Part shown: piece by piece, positions 29,234-38,942 of the stretch
How the letters are laid out: every line of letters begins with the position of its first letter
Numbering within the stretch: position 1 is the first letter of the stretch
Assembly (NCBI GenBank): GCA_015062805.1
Contig: SUTQ01000016.1
Span: 1 to 55,798 of the forward strand
Direction: 5' to 3'
From: Methanosphaera stadtmanae
GTDB lineage: Archaea > Methanobacteriota > Methanobacteria > Methanobacteriales > Methanobacteriaceae
DNA: 55,798 nt
Notes under the pieces: generated by a model
The model's input: the letters and a program-made list of their open reading frames with translations, nothing else
Database searches by the model: none
What the model was told of the DNA's origin: nothing
Program-made: the position numbers and the translations under genes

Positions 29234-30196
29234 TTAATCTTCTATGGCAAATAGTATGTCCCTAATAGTTGAAATTATAGGAACTAACAGGAATAGATAA
29301 ATGAAATTATGATTTACATTGAAGTCAAGTAAATTCACGATAATAGTAACTCCCATAATTATATAAAGCGTATGGTTAACATATGATTTTTCATCTTCTG
29401 ATACAACTCTTTCTAAAAATCCATGATTATTAGCATAATGATACATTAATAAAAAGAACAATATTGTCAATAATATATTGATTCCGAAGATAACATTTGC
29501 CAAGAAAAACTGTGAATAATTTCCTACCAGATATGTTCCATATGGAATAAATGATACTGACGCCAAAAATAGGATATTTAACCACAAGTAAGGCATGTTC
29601 AATTTTTTGATTTTTAAAAACTGATGATGGTATACCCAAAATGAAGCAAGCAAAATGAAACTTACCAGTGTGATACCAATATTTGGAATCATAGCATATA
29701 CCGAAGTTATAAATTGGCTATTGGATGTGCTATCCAAAACTGGTGATGAAATACCAAATATCAAAAGGGTCATAACTATTCCAAAGATTCCATCTGTTAA
29801 GGCCAACAATCTACTAGGATCAATATCAATCTGTTCCTTTAAAGAGTGTAAAACTTTCTGATATAATGATAAATTATTATTCTTTATAGTTAACTTTTTA
29901 ATATGATCATCTATGACTTTTTCTGATGCCCTATTTGCAGTTTTTTCACTGATTTTTTCTTTTTCAGAAAGCTGTTTTATTTTATTAAGTCTCTTGGCGG
30001 TCTTTGTATCTGTTTCCTCAATATATTCCTTTGTATCCTTAATTTTTTTTAAAGTTTTTTCATCACAATTATCTTCAATATTCTTTAGTTGATTATCTAT
30101 TACCTGCTTTAAATTTTCCAATTCTTCATATTTAGCAAATAAGATATCATTTGATTCATCGCATACTTTATTCATTTTATCTTCAATAAAAATCAC
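29234..30196 (-). CDS. TMEM175 (DUF1211) family channel-like protein with N-terminal coiled coil, about 313-320 aa
   Basis: Residues about 125-310 are the six-helix TMEM175 unit: RLLALTDGIFGIVMTLL (family signature RxxAxTDG at helix 1), ASFWVYHHQFL in helix 3, and FLASVSFIPY in helix 4. TMEM175 proteins are potassium-selective channels; prokaryotic ones work as tetramers. The first 120 residues are a long charged coiled coil (repeated Lys/Glu heptads), unusual for the family and suited to assembly or sensing inside the cell. The start is uncertain: GTG at 30196, or ATG at 30175 giving 313 residues. The ribosome-binding GGGTGAT is not well spaced for either. Confidence 0.8.
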   Translation of the reverse strand: MIFIEDKMNKVCDESNDILFAKYEELENLKQVIDNQLKNIEDNCDEKTLKKIKDTKEYIEETDTKTAKRLNKIKQLSEKEKISEKTANRASEKVIDDHIKKLTIKNNNLSLYQKVLHSLKEQIDIDPSRLLALTDGIFGIVMTLLIFGISSPVLDSTSNSQFITSVYAMIPNIGITLVSFILLASFWVYHHQFLKIKKLNMPYLWLNILFLASVSFIPYGTYLVGNYSQFFLANVIFGINILLTILFFLLMYHYANNHGFLERVVSEDEKSYVNHTLYIIMGVTIIVNLLDFNVNHNFIYLFLLVPIISTIRDILFAIED

Positions 30197-33242: not shown

Positions 33243-34037
33243 TTAGTCAGATACTAATACATAATACTCGTTTTGAGAGTCATTCAATAATTTTAACGTT
33301 ACTTCACTTACGTTTGCATAATAGTCCTTCATAGCCGCATCTATCAATTGCTCTATGCTGTGTTGTGTGGTATTTTTGATGTTTTGTTCCTTAAGGTATC
33401 TGCTGAAGTTGTCTATTATATTTTTCTTGTTTACCACATTAGCCTTAAGTAACTCTTCAAGATTACTGTTGATCCATTCCCTTAAATCTTCTTCAGTCAG
33501 TGCTTTGTACTTCATGATTTGAATTTGTTCAACGTAACTTCCATCAGGATTATTAAAGATTCTGTCAGAACCTACTTTTTCAATTAATGCCTTTTGAATA
33601 TGCTCATGAAATTCAGATTCGATGATGAAGTTACTTTTGAGTTCGTCAGGCAGTTGTATAAAAACATCATTATTTACCATACTTATACCTTCATGATATA
33701 GAGCAGACAATACTTTTTCTTTTATATCATCCATCAGTGTCTTTTCATTATAATTATCTACTATTATTATATGGTTGTTAATCCAATTATCAACAATATT
33801 TGATGCTCTATTATCATATTCATTGAGCAATTTAAAACCAACTATTTCAGATGAATCAGATAAATCAACATGATTATCATTTAGGAATACTCCTAGTATA
33901 TTATTGAAAAATGTAAGAAGTGCTTTTTCTGAAATATTCACTTCATGAAGCTGTAAATACTTGATAAGATTTTCCAGCAATAGAGATGTTTCAATTCTAT
34001 CATCATCCCGTGATGTATAAATCAGATTATTTTTCAA
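33243..34037 (-). CDS. Hypothetical protein of hsd-like operon (gene 4), 264 aa
   Basis: I recognise no family. The protein is soluble, acidic and mostly helical. Two segments (IVDNWINNHIIIVDN...SALYHEG and LREWINSNLEELLKAN...AAMKDYYANV) share a W-I-N-x-(H/N)...pattern that also occurs in the preceding protein (VYNWFNHNL, VEWLNENT), suggesting the two proteins contain related repeated helical or winged-helix modules. The start is a TTG immediately after the upstream TGA, with GTGAT overlapping the junction, so translation is coupled. It is always the last gene of the unit here; its role is tied to the HsdS/HsdM-like pair. Confidence 0.65.
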   Translation of the reverse strand: MKNNLIYTSRDDDRIETSLLLENLIKYLQLHEVNISEKALLTFFNNILGVFLNDNHVDLSDSSEIVGFKLLNEYDNRASNIVDNWINNHIIIVDNYNEKTLMDDIKEKVLSALYHEGISMVNNDVFIQLPDELKSNFIIESEFHEHIQKALIEKVGSDRIFNNPDGSYVEQIQIMKYKALTEEDLREWINSNLEELLKANVVNKKNIIDNFSRYLKEQNIKNTTQHSIEQLIDAAMKDYYANVSEVTLKLLNDSQNEYYVLVSD

Positions 34038-35726
34038 TCACGTATAGATAATATTGTCAGAATCAAAGATATCATTAGATAGTTCATCTTTTATGGAAGA
34101 TTGCAGGTTATCAGATACCTGTTTATCCAATATTTCTATATTGGGATACCACGTTACATTACCAGTACTGCTGGATGTATCCCTTTGTATAGTATCCTTG
34201 GATATTGACTGATATACCTCCTGAACTGCCTTGCCGATTATCTGGGAAAATGTTCTTGCAGGTACTGCCTTTGAGAATCCTGCATTATGCAATTCCTTCC
34301 ATTCATCAGGAGTGGTGATTAACCAACCATTTTGTGCAAATAATGGTTCTATTTTATCGAATATTTGACGTGTATATGTTTTTGAACCTTCCACTTCACA
34401 GGTGTTTTCATTTAACCATTCCACGATAATATTTTTGATTCTGTTTTCGCGTTCTTCATTTATATTGATAAATTTTAGTTTAGAATAGAATTCGTTACCC
34501 TTAATGCTGGTGTTTTTAATATCCTTGAAACTTAGTGTAGGATTATGTTTGTTATACCAACTGTACAAATAACTTTCCATACGATTAGATAATAATTTCA
34601 TGTCAATATCAATATCCTGACTATCAATGTCCTTATTAATTTTTGCAGTAATTTCTTCAATAGTAACAGTATCATGAATATTTCTGGAGATTTTAAGATT
34701 ATGATTGAACCAATTATACACAAATTCCTTAATATCCCTGTAATTTACTTCATCAATTACAACTTGCATTTTATTACTTCCCCTATTGTCACTCATAATA
34801 TTTTCATCTTTATCCTTACACACGTTTGAAATAGATTTGCAGTTTTCGGCATTTTCATCCAGTTTTTCCATTATTTCATCAAATTTATCCTCTATTGCAA
34901 CTAGTTTTTCATCCTGTTTAGCCAAATTTGTATTGAGTGAGTCCTTAATTAACGCAATTTCATTGAAATATGTGTTAAATTCCTGATATTTCCTGTTTGA
35001 TGCTTTGATTTTTTGATGAATCTTAGCCATTTTATTAGATAACTGATTATGCTTATTGGATAGACTATCCTCAAGGATGTCCTGTTTTTCATTGATTTCT
35101 TTAATTTCCCTTGAATAAGCATCATTTGGAATTCTTTCATCAAGATGTTCAATCAGTCTAACTGCTATTTCATCAATTATCCTATCAGTAAATTTAAAAT
35201 CTTCATCTTTTACCATTTGAATCTCCTTAATATCCTCATTTAATTCAATACTACTAGACCTTTTCTGTATGTACTGTCTAATCTTTCTTTTGTCAAATTT
35301 CTTTTTTCCATAGTCATTAAGCATAGAATTTGTGATACAAAGACTTTCAACAGATAATTCCTTCTTAACATCACCCATATCAATATCTAAAAGTATATTT
35401 TCTATATCTTCTACCGTCAATTCTTGGTTATGATTATTTGTCAAGAGTAATCCATCGATTTTACAGTAGTTGTTCAATGAATGCTCCAACAAATGATTGT
35501 AAAGCAATGAATTTTGTGGTTCTACTCTAAAGAAATCATAACCTACCTTTACCAAGTCCTGTACTGGAAATCTTCTGCATAGTAGTATCAGTATGAGAAT
35601 CTGCTGATTTAGATTCTTTTTAGTGTTGAAGTCCCTTGTACGTTCATACTTTTTGCAGAGATTGTTGTATATTTCTTTTAAATCCTTATCATTCAATTTA
35701 TTTACATGTTTGAGGGGATTTACCAT
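34038..35726 (-). CDS. Hypothetical coiled-coil protein of hsd-like operon (gene 3), 562 aa
   Basis: GGAGGTAAC 3 bases before the ATG at 35726 sets the start. The N-terminal 180 residues are helical, residues about 210-310 form a long coiled coil (NEKQDILEDSLSNKHNQLSN and later heptads), and the C-terminal half contains repeated modules starting IKEFVYNWFNHNL and IKNIIVEWLNENT, each followed by polar helices. No ATPase, nuclease or helicase motif is visible, so it does not replace HsdR. A structural or DNA-bridging subunit is possible. The gap to the HsdM-like gene is 20 bp. Confidence 0.65.
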   Translation of the reverse strand: MVNPLKHVNKLNDKDLKEIYNNLCKKYERTRDFNTKKNLNQQILILILLCRRFPVQDLVKVGYDFFRVEPQNSLLYNHLLEHSLNNYCKIDGLLLTNNHNQELTVEDIENILLDIDMGDVKKELSVESLCITNSMLNDYGKKKFDKRKIRQYIQKRSSSIELNEDIKEIQMVKDEDFKFTDRIIDEIAVRLIEHLDERIPNDAYSREIKEINEKQDILEDSLSNKHNQLSNKMAKIHQKIKASNRKYQEFNTYFNEIALIKDSLNTNLAKQDEKLVAIEDKFDEIMEKLDENAENCKSISNVCKDKDENIMSDNRGSNKMQVVIDEVNYRDIKEFVYNWFNHNLKISRNIHDTVTIEEITAKINKDIDSQDIDIDMKLLSNRMESYLYSWYNKHNPTLSFKDIKNTSIKGNEFYSKLKFININEERENRIKNIIVEWLNENTCEVEGSKTYTRQIFDKIEPLFAQNGWLITTPDEWKELHNAGFSKAVPARTFSQIIGKAVQEVYQSISKDTIQRDTSSSTGNVTWYPNIEILDKQVSDNLQSSIKDELSNDIFDSDNIIYT

Positions 35727-35746
35727 TGTTACCTCCATAATTAATG

Positions 35747-37042
35747 TTACCTTTTTTGCAACATAGCTTCTATTTCTTGATCCAATTCTTTTATCCTATC
35801 AGAACATTTTTTCTGTTTGTTCAGTATATCCTCAATGGATTGTTTCTCATAATCCAATGTGTAAACATAACGTTTTGGATTGAGATTATAATCATTTTTG
35901 ATAATTTCATCCTTATCTATTATATTACTGAATTTTGGGATTATTTCCCTATTTTCATAGCTTTTGAAAATACTCTGTTCTTCAGATGGCAATAATAGTC
36001 CCGGTAATAAATGTTTAGGCTTAATAAAGAGGAAATCTTCGCTTTCCTTATTCTTATTTAGAATTAGAATAATTATATCACGACTTCTGAAACCTGAATC
36101 ATAATCTATTACCACATCCAGGAGATTATTTTCAATTAAGCATTGTCTTAATTGTTGTGCATCACTTTTTACCAGTAAATCCTGCGTAGTTGTTGTTACA
36201 ATTATACCATTGTCATCCATATGTTCTATTAGGTTAAGCAGATGAATTGAATTTGAACTTTTGGTTATGTATTTGTCGTATTTTTTGATTTTAGTCTTAT
36301 CATTTCTTTTCAATCGTTTTTCAAATGGTACTGAGACGATTGTATCGTATTTTTTACTATCCTCATCTATGAGAATTTCCTTCTTATATAGTGAAACTTT
36401 ATCCGATGATATTCCATTGATTAAAAGATTCTGCTTTGCATGTATATAATCGGCATCATTTTTCAAATACAATGTAGCATGATCAAAATGTTCCAGAGCC
36501 GTGACAGTTTGTGCATCCATAGATGAAGGATCATAAAATTCTTTGACTTCATGATTGATAGTGGCTAGTTTGGACAACAAATCAATGGTGGGTGGAATAA
36601 TCCTATCTACAGCATTATCATATGTTTCTTGATTATAATTTACTAACTTGAATAACTCAGTTAAATTATCATCATATTCTATGATATCCATAATGTCATT
36701 CAAATTATTCTTAGTAATCTTTTCATCATCTACTCTGGAAAATATTTCCTTAATGTCCTGATTTTTACTGTTTTTTAGAACATTCAAAGCACTTTTAACA
36801 TCAGATAAACAGGAATCCTCATTCTTATCGTATTTTTTAATGATATTGGTTAAGAGTTCATAGTCACGGAAAGTAAATCCATACTCCTTCTGAAATTCAT
36901 CCAAATTATCATTGAGTTCTTCCTGTTTTTGTGCCAAGAATTTCATTGTTAAAAAAGGAATTACATCTACCTCTGAACCTATTCTGCTGAAATTTCTACG
37001 AAGATCTTTTCTTCTACTTCTATGACGAATGTTAATTTTCAT
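35747..37042 (-). CDS. HsdM-like protein lacking methyltransferase catalytic motifs, 431 aa
   Basis: Order and spacing of segments follow the type I modification subunit HsdM, but the SAM-binding motif, normally DPxCGSGG, reads DPSSMDAQ (residues 171-178), and the catalytic NPPF reads SVPF (237-240). The later parts are retained: GIIVTTTTQDLL for the usual VVLP segment, CLIENNLLDVVIDY, FRSRDIIILILNKNK and a coiled C-terminus. It is therefore probably an inactive structural homologue. GGTGAT 4 bases before the ATG at 37042 sets the start, giving an 11-bp overlap with the hsdS-like gene. Assignment rests on motif order, not on a profile search. Confidence 0.7.
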   Translation of the reverse strand: MKINIRHRSRRKDLRRNFSRIGSEVDVIPFLTMKFLAQKQEELNDNLDEFQKEYGFTFRDYELLTNIIKKYDKNEDSCLSDVKSALNVLKNSKNQDIKEIFSRVDDEKITKNNLNDIMDIIEYDDNLTELFKLVNYNQETYDNAVDRIIPPTIDLLSKLATINHEVKEFYDPSSMDAQTVTALEHFDHATLYLKNDADYIHAKQNLLINGISSDKVSLYKKEILIDEDSKKYDTIVSVPFEKRLKRNDKTKIKKYDKYITKSSNSIHLLNLIEHMDDNGIIVTTTTQDLLVKSDAQQLRQCLIENNLLDVVIDYDSGFRSRDIIILILNKNKESEDFLFIKPKHLLPGLLLPSEEQSIFKSYENREIIPKFSNIIDKDEIIKNDYNLNPKRYVYTLDYEKQSIEDILNKQKKCSDRIKELDQEIEAMLQKR

Positions 37043-37622
37043 ATGTATCACCAATAATATCATCATACAATGAATTGATGAGTTTTTCATCACATTCAAT
37101 TGATTTGTTCTTAAGTTCAATCCTTTCATTTACTTTTTTAATTATTGTCGCTTGTTTATCCTGTTCTTCCTTTTCAGGCAATAATATTTTTAAGTCTTTA
37201 AGTATTCTTGTACTTACCTTCATAATCCTTGTTGAATCTATGGTTCTTTGAATTTCATAATCTACTCTAGGATCATTGAGATAATAAGTTAAGAAAGTTG
37301 AATTGACTATTGAACTATCTACCCGTATAATATTATAATTGTTTGAAATGATTGCTCCCTTTTCTGTAGTAATCTCCTTTGCGAAACTTGGTTGCTGAAC
37401 CTTATATAATATATCATGTTCCTGTGAATAAAATCGTTCCTTGATATCTTCAGATATTTCCTCTTCTTCAGTTTCAAACTTTTTTCCGATCATAAAGAAG
37501 GGCATAGTTTTAATAACCTTCTGTTTGATGGAATCTTCCTTGTTGACATATCTCTGTAAAGGTAAACCTGTTATTACAGTTGCTATATCTTCCAATTTAT
37601 ATTCTTTAGTTTTCAAATACAT
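37032..37622 (-). CDS. Type I restriction specificity (HsdS)-like subunit, half size, 196 aa
   Basis: EYKLEDIATVITGLPL is the usual beginning of an HsdS target-recognition domain, and ISTRILKDLKILLPEKEEQDKQATIIKKVNERI is the conserved helical spacer that follows it. Only one recognition domain is present (full HsdS has two, about 400 residues), so it would have to dimerise to bind a bipartite site. GGAGGT lies 4 bases before the ATG. First gene of a four-gene operon with an inactive-looking HsdM and no HsdR. It may act as a sequence-specific DNA-binding module rather than in restriction. Confidence 0.8.
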   Translation of the reverse strand: MYLKTKEYKLEDIATVITGLPLQRYVNKEDSIKQKVIKTMPFFMIGKKFETEEEEISEDIKERFYSQEHDILYKVQQPSFAKEITTEKGAIISNNYNIIRVDSSIVNSTFLTYYLNDPRVDYEIQRTIDSTRIMKVSTRILKDLKILLPEKEEQDKQATIIKKVNERIELKNKSIECDEKLINSLYDDIIGDTYEN

Positions 37623-37668
37623 ACCTCCACAATAAGTTAACGTTACTTACATATAATTATTATTTTCT

Positions 37669-37682
37669 TAGTATATAAATGT
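37669..37682 (-). promoter_or_regulatory. Core promoter (TATA) of hsd-like operon
   Basis: On the minus strand this reads ACATTTATATACTA, identical over 14 bases to the divergent promoter at 37873-37886 and nearly the same as the nifS promoter near 41300. The predicted transcription start is near 37645-37650, beside the palindrome TAACGTTA (37637-37644), leaving a leader of about 25 nt. Confidence 0.6.
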
Positions 37683-37872
37683 ATGTTTTATGTAACTGTT
37701 ATTTTTTTATAATTAATTGAAGTTATATGATAATTACTTTATAATATCATAAATTTTAATTTTTAATAAAATACCTTTATTTTAATAAATCTAACATTAT
37801 ATAGATTTATATTATATAATTAGATCATAATTTTTTAAAATAATTATTTTGTAAATATTTGATACTTACAAA

Positions 37873-37886
37873 ACATTTATATACTA
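37873..37886 (+). promoter_or_regulatory. Core promoter (TATA) of the leader/DUF1874 unit
   Basis: ACATTTATATACTA includes the archaeal TATA box TTTATATA at 37876-37883. Transcription should begin about 25 bases downstream, near 37905, exactly where the first hairpin begins. It faces away from the hsd-like operon promoter, with about 190 bp between the two boxes. Confidence 0.6.
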
Positions 37887-38028
37887 CTTTGTCTAAAGTG
37901 TATATTACACGACGAAAATGTATGTAACATTTACATACATAAATCGTGTTGGTATGATAGAAAACAACTATCACATCATCAGTATAATGATTACCTATAA
38001 AGAATATATAAGCACTGGGGGTGTTAGA

Positions 38029-38198
38029 ATGTAATAAATAAATGAATTATTATATATCATTTTTTTTATTACCTTTTTAATTTGAGTGTAGTTTTACTAG
38101 GGACATATTTATCCAGGCCGTAAATCCAGGGCAAATGAAGGTTGAATATGAAATATATTTTTTTTATAATACTGGATAAAAAAATAGGAGGAATCAAA
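38029..38198 (+). repeat. Leader unit 1 (170 nt)
   Basis: ATG-TAA at 38029, a U8 run at 38060-38067, ACCTTTT at 38071, a hairpin CATATTTATCC/GGTTGAATATG (38104-38114 with 38140-38150, 10 of 11 paired including one G-U), U8 at 38158-38165 and AGGAGG at 38186. All elements except the first U8 recur in the same order and at similar distances in unit 2. Confidence 0.5.
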
Positions 38199-38366
38199 AT
38201 GTAAAAAAAATAAATAACTAGAAATATCTATAATTATGGAACACCTTTTGTTTTTTTTTAAGTGGGTCTTACTGACATTAAGGGAACACGACATTCTAAT
38301 CAAACATCAAGATTGGAGTGTTGTGTATAATTTTTTTTAATCACCAATTATAATGGAGGCAAAATA
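38199..38366 (+). repeat. Leader unit 2 (168 nt)
   Basis: ATG-TAA at 38199, ACCTTTT at 38243 followed by a U9 run, the 16-bp hairpin at 38286-38326, U8 at 38331-38338 and GGAGG at 38355-38359, which serves the first DUF1874 gene. Base identity to unit 1 is limited (for example ACCTTTT...GTG...TTACT...GGGA-CA), so the duplication, if real, is old. Confidence 0.5.
38286..38338 (+). terminator. 16-bp RNA hairpin with U8, just before DUF1874 gene 1
   Basis: ACACGACATTCTAATC pairs over all 16 positions with GATTGGAGTGTTGTGT around a 9-nt loop, using three G-U pairs that form only in plus-strand RNA; ATAA and eight U follow. The G-U pairs point to selection on the RNA rather than on DNA symmetry. 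It ends 28 bp before the first DUF1874 ATG and should limit read-through into it. Confidence 0.7.
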
Positions 38367-38642
38367 ATGAAATATATATCAAATGCATTTAGTCCGAAAA
38401 TGTTAAATCCATATACAAATCCAACATTTACAATTGGACCAACAACATTTGAGGAAATACAAAGTGTAAAAAACGAACTTATTAGTTCAATTGGTCATCA
38501 AAATACTGCTGATCATGTGAACATGGAGAAAAATAGAATGAACATTCAACTTGAAATAAATGATATATTATATCTAGTCATTTCTCAAAAAAATGAATGT
38601 AACGAAATTGAATACAACTATAAAAAAATTATTATGAAATAG
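38367..38642 (+). CDS. DUF1874 protein, AcrIII-1/Crn2-type ring nuclease homologue, 91 aa
   Basis: Matches the STIV B116/DUF1874 fold by motif: SNAFSPKML at the start, ISSIGHQNTADHV (His44) in the middle and KNRMNIQLEINDILYLVISQ at the end. In the studied members (SIRV1 gp29, AcrIII-1) the histidine of this IGH motif drives cleavage of cyclic tetra-adenylate, which switches off type III CRISPR effectors; related Crn2 proteins are encoded in CRISPR loci. GGAGG lies 7 bases before the ATG. It stands behind the structured leader and forms an operon with the paralogue 12 bp downstream. No CRISPR gene is in the window, so a viral or mobile origin is plausible. Confidence 0.75.
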   Translation: MKYISNAFSPKMLNPYTNPTFTIGPTTFEEIQSVKNELISSIGHQNTADHVNMEKNRMNIQLEINDILYLVISQKNECNEIEYNYKKIIMK

Positions 38643-38654
38643 GAGGAGAATAAT

Positions 38655-38942
38655 ATGATATACGTAACTGATAATTTTTCAGCACAAATGTTTCCAAATG
38701 AAGAATTAATAGTAAATACCAGAACAATAAAAAAAAGTAAATTCCTAAAAAATACAAAGGATGCTGTAAGTTCAATAAGTTCCAGAAGAATAGCTAAACT
38801 ATTACATAAACCCGTCAAAAAAGAAGAATTTCAACTTACACATGGGGATATAATCTATGTAGTAACCAGCAAGTTCGGAAGAAATAAATCCGATTATAAA
38901 AAAGAAAATAAATTCAGATTCGAAGAATTTATAGTATCATAA
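38655..38942 (+). CDS. Divergent DUF1874-like paralogue lacking catalytic His, 95 aa
   Basis: The start (MIYVTDNFSAQMFPNEE) and the late strand (LTHGDIIYVVTSK) align with the preceding protein, but where that has SSIGHQNT this one has SSISSRRI, so the catalytic Gly-His pair is Ser-Ser. It may bind but not cut cyclic oligoadenylate, form a heterodimer with its neighbour, or have another role. It is strongly basic (many Lys and Arg). AGGAGGAG lies 7 bases before the ATG, and the 12-bp gap shows co-transcription. Confidence 0.6.
   Translation: MIYVTDNFSAQMFPNEELIVNTRTIKKSKFLKNTKDAVSSISSRRIAKLLHKPVKKEEFQLTHGDIIYVVTSKFGRNKSDYKKENKFRFEEFIVS

Follow-up and report, generated by a model that had tools for sequence, protein, structure and literature searches.

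The locus considered here raises the question of why an archaeal genome should keep a specificity subunit and an HsdM-like subunit of the type I restriction-modification (R-M) kind when the restriction subunit HsdR is missing and the methyltransferase motifs are broken. It lies in a 55,798-nucleotide stretch of Methanosphaera stadtmanae DNA (contig SUTQ01000016.1, termed the window), corresponding to contig 43 in a genome of 2.1 Mb, and it is read from the minus strand in the order hsdS, psi-hsdM and third gene, with two small genes, B1 and B2, directed away from it. The prefix psi denotes the HsdM-like family with lost S-adenosylmethionine (SAM) and catalytic motifs, and its nine loci are termed psi loci. 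Comparison of these loci establishes, at the level of sequence, that every member has lost both catalytic motifs, that the HsdS/psi-HsdM pair is under purifying selection, that the recognition domain is frozen, that conserved dyads lie at fixed places and that HsdR is absent. The explanation considered probable is that a methylation-dead M2S2 complex serves as a sequence-specific autoregulator of its own operon and of B1/B2. The features of the region are as follows.

37032-37622, minus strand: half-size HsdS, 196 amino acids (PF01420, PADLOC, PDB 1yf2, homologues).
35747-37042, minus strand: psi-HsdM, a predicted dead N6-methyltransferase-like subunit, 431 amino acids (N6_Mtase, PDB 3lkd, motif loss).
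34038-35738, minus strand: third gene, coding for a coiled-coil/winged-helix protein; N-terminal 566 codons of 831, termed P566 (homologues in three other genomes).
34038-34040, minus strand: in-frame TGA at an invariant tryptophan codon (W567 invariant in three fused homologues).
33243-34037, minus strand: third gene, C-terminal 264 codons, beyond the TGA (continuous with P566 in L106, L107 and L047).
37631-37651, minus strand: dyad 3, TGTAAGTAACGTTAACTTATT, at the predicted hsdS transcription start (column identity 0.86 versus 0.68 in the spacer).
37671-37686, minus strand: TATA box of the hsdS operon, ATTTATATAC (kept in nine loci; column identity 0.87).
37850-37870, minus strand: dyad 2, TGTAAGTATCAAATATTTACA, directly upstream of the B1 TATA box (column identity 0.89).
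37875-37888, plus strand: TATA box of the B1-B2 promoter (column identity 0.88).
37919-37939, plus strand: dyad 1, TGTATGTAACATTTACATACA, near the B1 transcription start (sole full-dyad match in the genome at three or fewer mismatches).
37910-38366, plus strand: B1 leader, ~450 nucleotides, with two Shine-Dalgarno plus start-stop elements.
38367-38642, plus strand: B1, STIV_B116-like (DUF1874/AcrIII-1 fold), 91 amino acids (PF08960, PDB 2x4i, invariant His44).
38655-38942, plus strand: B2, a paralogue of B1 lacking the histidine, 95 amino acids (profile match to 6scf, E = 5.7e-5).

The half-size HsdS and the HsdM-like reading frame with DPSSMDAQ and SVPF named in the original prediction are both present. 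The psi-hsdM gene starts at the ATG at 37042, giving an 11-nucleotide overlap with hsdS, and this start was taken over the mechanical open reading frame (ORF) start at 37129 because homologues align only from 37042. The protein matches the Pfam N6_Mtase profile with an E-value of 5.8e-16, covering profile positions 90-309 only, and the HsdM structure 3lkd in the PDB (E = 1.5e-24). Motif I of the window protein is DPSSMDAQ, and SVPF occupies the place of motif IV (NPPF). The latter is S(V/I/L)P(F/Y) in all nine psi-HsdM homologues, and motif I is DP(S/T)(S/C) with no glycine motif following, or NPSS in L044; no member has G-x-G in the equivalent region, and no canonical methyltransferase motif was found elsewhere in psi-HsdM. 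HsdR is likewise absent from 9/9 psi loci within the 9-19 kb examined around each. Both results agree with the earlier proposal that the set would recognise DNA through HsdS and neither methylate nor cut by known domains. The psi-HsdM proteins, 40-60% identical among homologues, form one clade with 100/100 tree support. In the L042/L043 pair the ratio of nonsynonymous to synonymous substitution rates (dN/dS) is ~0.09 for psi-HsdM, HsdS, B1 and B2 alike, a rough estimate as dS is high, and in the closer L046/L047 pair it is 0.46 for psi-HsdM and 0.20 for HsdS, from few changes. The loss of the motifs in all nine members, the single clade and the dN/dS of 0.09 indicate psi-HsdM is kept as a pseudoenzyme, and the motif loss predicts that its target is not methylated. 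The selection suspected earlier is borne out by this ratio and by conservation of the half-HsdS and psi-HsdM pair in 9 of 20 Methanosphaera genomes. Outside Methanosphaera no psi-HsdM was found, only distant ordinary HsdM relatives being matched, and there was none in IMG/VR viral contigs.

HsdS is composed of one target-recognition domain and one helix, and it matches Pfam PF01420 (E = 2.4e-7, half length), PADLOC Specificity_I (3.6e-16) and the HsdS structure 1yf2 (E = 3.4e-8); phage records gave no match. It is 59-72% identical to its homologues in eight other genomes. In all 21 psi pairs compared, HsdS identity equals or exceeds HsdM identity (nearly always exceeding it), the recognition half included, whereas HsdS is the less conserved subunit in 10/10 live type I pairs. 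Judged by these identities the psi recognition domain is frozen, not diversifying as in restriction systems, and because the conservation of HsdS exceeds that of HsdM, opposite to what live systems show, the DNA target is probably fixed. Frozen specificity therefore favours a regulator, which must retain its own target, over restriction systems, which change theirs.

The candidate target is found in the divergent promoter region. Three conserved places with the sequence TGTAWGTAAC occur in the aligned regions, each inside a dyad of ~21 bp (TGTAWGTAAC...TACA), and their positions flank both TATA boxes, one near the B1 start, one over the predicted hsdS start and one immediately preceding the TATA box of B1. 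The dyad columns are more conserved than the spacer in the alignment of psi promoter regions, and the sites, at the TATA and start regions, are placed as conserved operator-like sites at an autoregulator's own promoter would be. The psi promoter regions, 7.8 kb in total, hold 17 copies of TGTAWGTAAC, compared with 4 copies in the 416 kb taken from other loci (~200-fold over background), and the word is absent from non-psi B1/B2 loci. When every inverted 4-mer was scanned blind, GTAA-N7-TTAC came out at the top (7/9 loci, nine sites against 0.25 expected, shuffled maximum four loci), tied in locus count with TGTA-N9-TACA. The full dyad occurs at one place in the 2.1-Mb genome at three or fewer mismatches, and this single match points to local control.

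These features suggest a mechanism in which two half-HsdS subunits pair through their helices and, with two psi-HsdM subunits, form an M2S2 complex resembling a type I methyltransferase. Without binding SAM or methylating, the complex would still clamp a bipartite palindrome with the core GTAA-N7-TTAC and would sit on the dyads of the shared divergent promoter region. Binding would autoregulate the hsdS operon and B1/B2, as well as the downstream winged-helix protein where present. The sign of control would most simply be repression because the sites overlap the TATA and transcription-start regions. Published half-HsdS homodimers recognise GAA-N7-TTC (EcoR124I-delta50) and TCA-N8-TGA (EcoDXXI-deltaC), and neither S nor M alone binds DNA (PMC3874165), which would explain why a dead HsdM is retained.

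Catalytic loss in half-HsdS loci is not confined to the psi family. In the SHPPF family, six loci (L100, L174, L175, L176, L177 and L178, with L174 in the window's own genome, C32) carry a half-HsdS and a dead HsdM with the motifs SHPPF and DATCGSCS. These loci are without B1/B2, and in several a small Cys/His-rich gene lies divergently beside the locus. By identity, HsdS is conserved at least as well as HsdM in 10/10 SHPPF pairs, the recognition half included. The blind scan gave the promoter dyad TTTCATA-N6-TATGAAA (TCAT-N8-ATGA) in 5/6 loci, with a shuffled maximum of two, and the spacers N7 (psi) and N8 (SHPPF) equal those of the published homodimer targets. Single losses of the catalytic Asn occur beside B1/B2 in L094 (DLPL), L096 (QPPF) and L098 (CPPF), and the tree needs separate changes to account for the SHPPF, L094, L096 and L098 losses. 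The HsdMs of HsdR-containing operons in the genus all keep NPP(F/Y); live HsdM motifs are found as exceptions in L097, beside B1/B2, and in some half-HsdS loci without B1/B2. The live half-HsdS promoters L158 and L162 were not significant in the repeated-dyad test. As side observations, GTC-N12-GAC repeats are visible by eye in the L158 and L162 promoters, and L185 (4876-6982) encodes a very diverged half-HsdS-like protein (267 amino acids) with an HsdM-like protein (446 amino acids, NIPE for NPPF) on a long branch of unsure place in the tree.

B1 and B2 are placed divergently from hsdS across ~750-960 nucleotides in 8/9 psi loci. B1 matches PF08960 (E = 8.5e-6) and PDB entry 2x4i (E = 8.5e-10), and its catalytic-type His44 is invariant in 13/13 sequences, so that it has both the DUF1874 fold and the active-site histidine of AcrIII-1/Crn2. 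Phage matches to B1 were only in Sulfolobus viruses, with one further IMG/VR locus. Assignment of B1 as a ring nuclease for type III CRISPR was examined and marked down; a scan of the 20 Methanosphaera genomes, in which controls matched, detected no Cas10 palm domain and so makes such a role for B1/B2 unlikely. The B1 leader contains two start-stop elements, at 38017-38034 (GGGGGTGTTAGAATGTAA) and 38187-38204 (GGAGGAATCAAAATGTAA), each with a strong Shine-Dalgarno sequence followed by a start-stop or an ORF of few codons, and at least one is present in all nine loci. A leader of this kind, with hairpins adjoining U-tracts, is found at the corresponding position of L041-L048; in the window, a z-score of -4 was obtained for the last hairpin and the others are not significant. 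By these features the leader looks like an attenuator, and they are kept even in L045, which is without B1/B2. An Rfam scan of the promoter region gave nothing above threshold. At the leader start of L045 and L048, possible related ORFs of ~40 amino acids ending QFM(Q/R)NT (MQKQEQMIRIF... and MMKHKIQF...) can be seen by eye.

Related B1/B2 modules are found in other settings. L098 (3931-12505) and L094 (475-9594) each hold a half-HsdS, an HsdM without the catalytic Asn, B1 and B2 beside a complete HsdR/HsdM/HsdS in one locus, and in L098 the dead HsdM groups nearest to the live HsdM clade of its own operon. In L095 (1756-4666) a 371-amino acid protein with no assigned family occupies the HsdS/HsdM slot before B1/B2, its gene having a repeated dyad, AATCTTTTGAAAAAGATT, on both sides of the TATA box, and B1/B2 are followed by a TIR-domain gene adjoining a type I R-M system. 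Separately, L097 (2158-5703) has a recombinase gene flanked by inverted pieces of HsdS, next to the live HsdM, and looks like a phase-variable type I system.

These loci bear on which protein binds the dyads. It is possible, though unlikely, that B1/B2 or a separate host transcription factor does so and that psi-HsdM/HsdS acts elsewhere, for example by pairing or competing with active type I complexes. DNA binding has been reported for proteins of the B116 fold, no neighbours of the psi loci are more constant than B1/B2, and the dyads of L097, L096, L094 and the psi family all start with TGTA. However, the dyads are kept in L045 where B1/B2 are lost, the SHPPF loci have dyads with no B1/B2, and the B1/B2 proteins of L094, L095 and L098 are 58-71% identical yet their repeated dyads are unrelated. 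The differing dyads of these three loci, together with L045, suggest that the site follows the DNA-recognition protein of the locus, and HsdS/psi-HsdM is favoured over B1/B2 as the putative binder.

Several observations weigh against autoregulation by HsdS/psi-HsdM. L097 shares the psi promoter and a TGTATGT core with a half-HsdS only ~30% identical to psi HsdS, so that the correspondence between site and recognition domain is imperfect. In L045 the promoter and leader on the B1 side are retained as well, and the loss of B1/B2 there may be recent. The full dyad, at ~21 bp with repeated GTA elements, is longer than the usual type I target. Genome-wide, TGTAWGTAAC alone is not enriched (23 versus 23 in the reversed control) and gives no sign of a regulon. 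On the statistical side the null of the blind scan is lenient, the scanned sequences being related by ancestry, the two single SHPPF loci examined are not significant alone in the repeated-dyad test, and one control promoter reached p = 0.015 in that test.

An extension of the autoregulator model, considered quite unlikely, makes the complex a decoy sensor. Phage anti-restriction DNA mimics of the Ocr/ArdA type bind M2S cores, and here they would strip the complex off its operators and so turn on B1/B2, in a regulator class, built of a dead HsdM and a half-HsdS of frozen target, that would have evolved repeatedly from type I methyltransferase cores.

A stand-alone anti-phage system, in which the dead HsdMS recognises the DNA of invaders and the effector is either B1/B2 or the winged-helix protein, appears improbable. 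The sister B1/B2 modules in or beside the type I R-M loci L094 and L098, the TIR-domain gene and R-M system beside those of L095, and the patchy presence (9/20) of psi loci in differing genomic surroundings are consistent with defence. Against this, the recognition domain is frozen, the large protein is missing from 5/9 loci and interrupted in the window, and self and foreign sites would be indistinguishable in the absence of methylation. No nuclease or other effector domain was found in the operon proteins by domain and defence scans, and the defence-family scan of the four proteins originally predicted gave HsdM/HsdS matches and coiled-coil noise only. Of the two roles first offered, defence or regulation, the frozen domain, the promoter palindromes and the single full dyad support regulation far better.

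A still active methyltransferase with unusual motifs is very improbable, as the SAM motif and catalytic Asn are gone in all members even though profile matching indicates the fold is retained. A decayed R-M relic without function, to which the loss of HsdR and catalysis and the in-frame stop in one gene might point, is scarcely credible and is refuted by sequence conservation for HsdS/psi-HsdM and B1/B2, given intact hsdS and psi-hsdM in nine genomes down to 40% identity, the low dN/dS, uniform motif substitutions and conserved promoter sites.

For the split third gene of the window genome, decay is possible. Its 566- and 264-residue ORFs lie in the same frame with one TGA (codon 567) between them, and in three homologues this codon is TGG (Trp) in one continuous ORF, with read-through lengths of 840 amino acids (L107/L048) and 600 amino acids (L106/L046 and L047). 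The codon after the TGA is TTG, and no Shine-Dalgarno sequence is seen there. By this alignment the window holds an interrupted copy of a single 831-codon gene. Four tightly spaced intact genes had been described at the outset; the ORFs and their shared W-x-N modules are present, but the 562- and 264-residue "genes" are one gene split by TGA, and the operon consists of three genes, the third interrupted. Nor do these proteins belong to a constant set, with P566 homologues in only 4/9 psi genomes, and the stable partners B1/B2 lie outside the region first described. The HsdS/psi-HsdM pair recurs in nine genomes and the sister modules lie in or near R-M loci (L094, L095 and L098), but the third gene is optional and not the core of the locus. 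AlphaFold2 models of its two parts, from three-sequence alignments, have mean predicted local distance difference test scores of 48 and 50, and only local winged helices were used. Confident prediction of these is limited to residues 330-420 in the first part and to the last 85 residues of the second. For residues 330-420 the best Foldseek match is the RFX DNA-binding domain (probability 0.91, with a weak E-value of 0.23), and the nearest structural neighbours of the modules are PadR-like regulators and the winged helices of RFX and of asfivirus PrimPol, the E-values being weak throughout. The modules, found in both parts, therefore look like winged helices in the models. Elsewhere in the window, the product encoded at 29234-30196 on the minus strand combines an N-terminal coiled coil and a TMEM175-like potassium channel domain.

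Compared with known systems, the psi loci lack what defines a type I R-M system, namely HsdR, the SAM motif with (N/D)PP(F/Y), and a diversifying HsdS. The half-HsdS homodimer type I M2S methyltransferases (EcoR124I-delta50, EcoDXXI-deltaC and NgoAV; PMC3874165) are alike in having a half-HsdS and an HsdM partner, and their targets are palindromes interrupted by N7 or N8, the geometry of the candidate sites here. They methylate, whereas here the SAM and catalytic motifs are lost, there is no HsdR, and the candidate sites lie at promoters of the locus itself. B1 is alike to the DUF1874/STIV_B116 family (the AcrIII-1 and Crn2 ring nucleases) in fold and active-type histidine, but it forms a divergent pair with the His-less B2, and with no Cas10 palm domain there is no type III CRISPR signal to degrade. 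The W-x-N modules appear to share the local fold of D5-type and RFX-type winged-helix domains, a comparison limited by low-confidence models, no sequence family match and no helicase or primase part in the third gene.

No description of a type I HsdM/HsdS core as a methylation-free transcription regulator was found in the open-access literature searched. If correct, the proposal would show concretely how the core of a defence enzyme can become a gene regulator and would explain the retention of HsdR-less half-HsdS/HsdM pairs with broken motifs, usually annotated as orphan methylases. It would also link DUF1874, the fold of viral anti-CRISPR proteins, with the R-M loci of an archaeal genus with no detected type III Cas10, and exact DNA sites and a short protein list are now available for testing. 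Regulators of R-M loci are already known, RptR among them (PMC12255303). Like RptR and the type II C proteins, which are small DNA-binding autoregulators, the locus has palindromic repeats over its own promoter, but where those proteins are helical or helix-turn-helix, the proposed regulator would be the methyltransferase core itself, as a pseudoenzyme.

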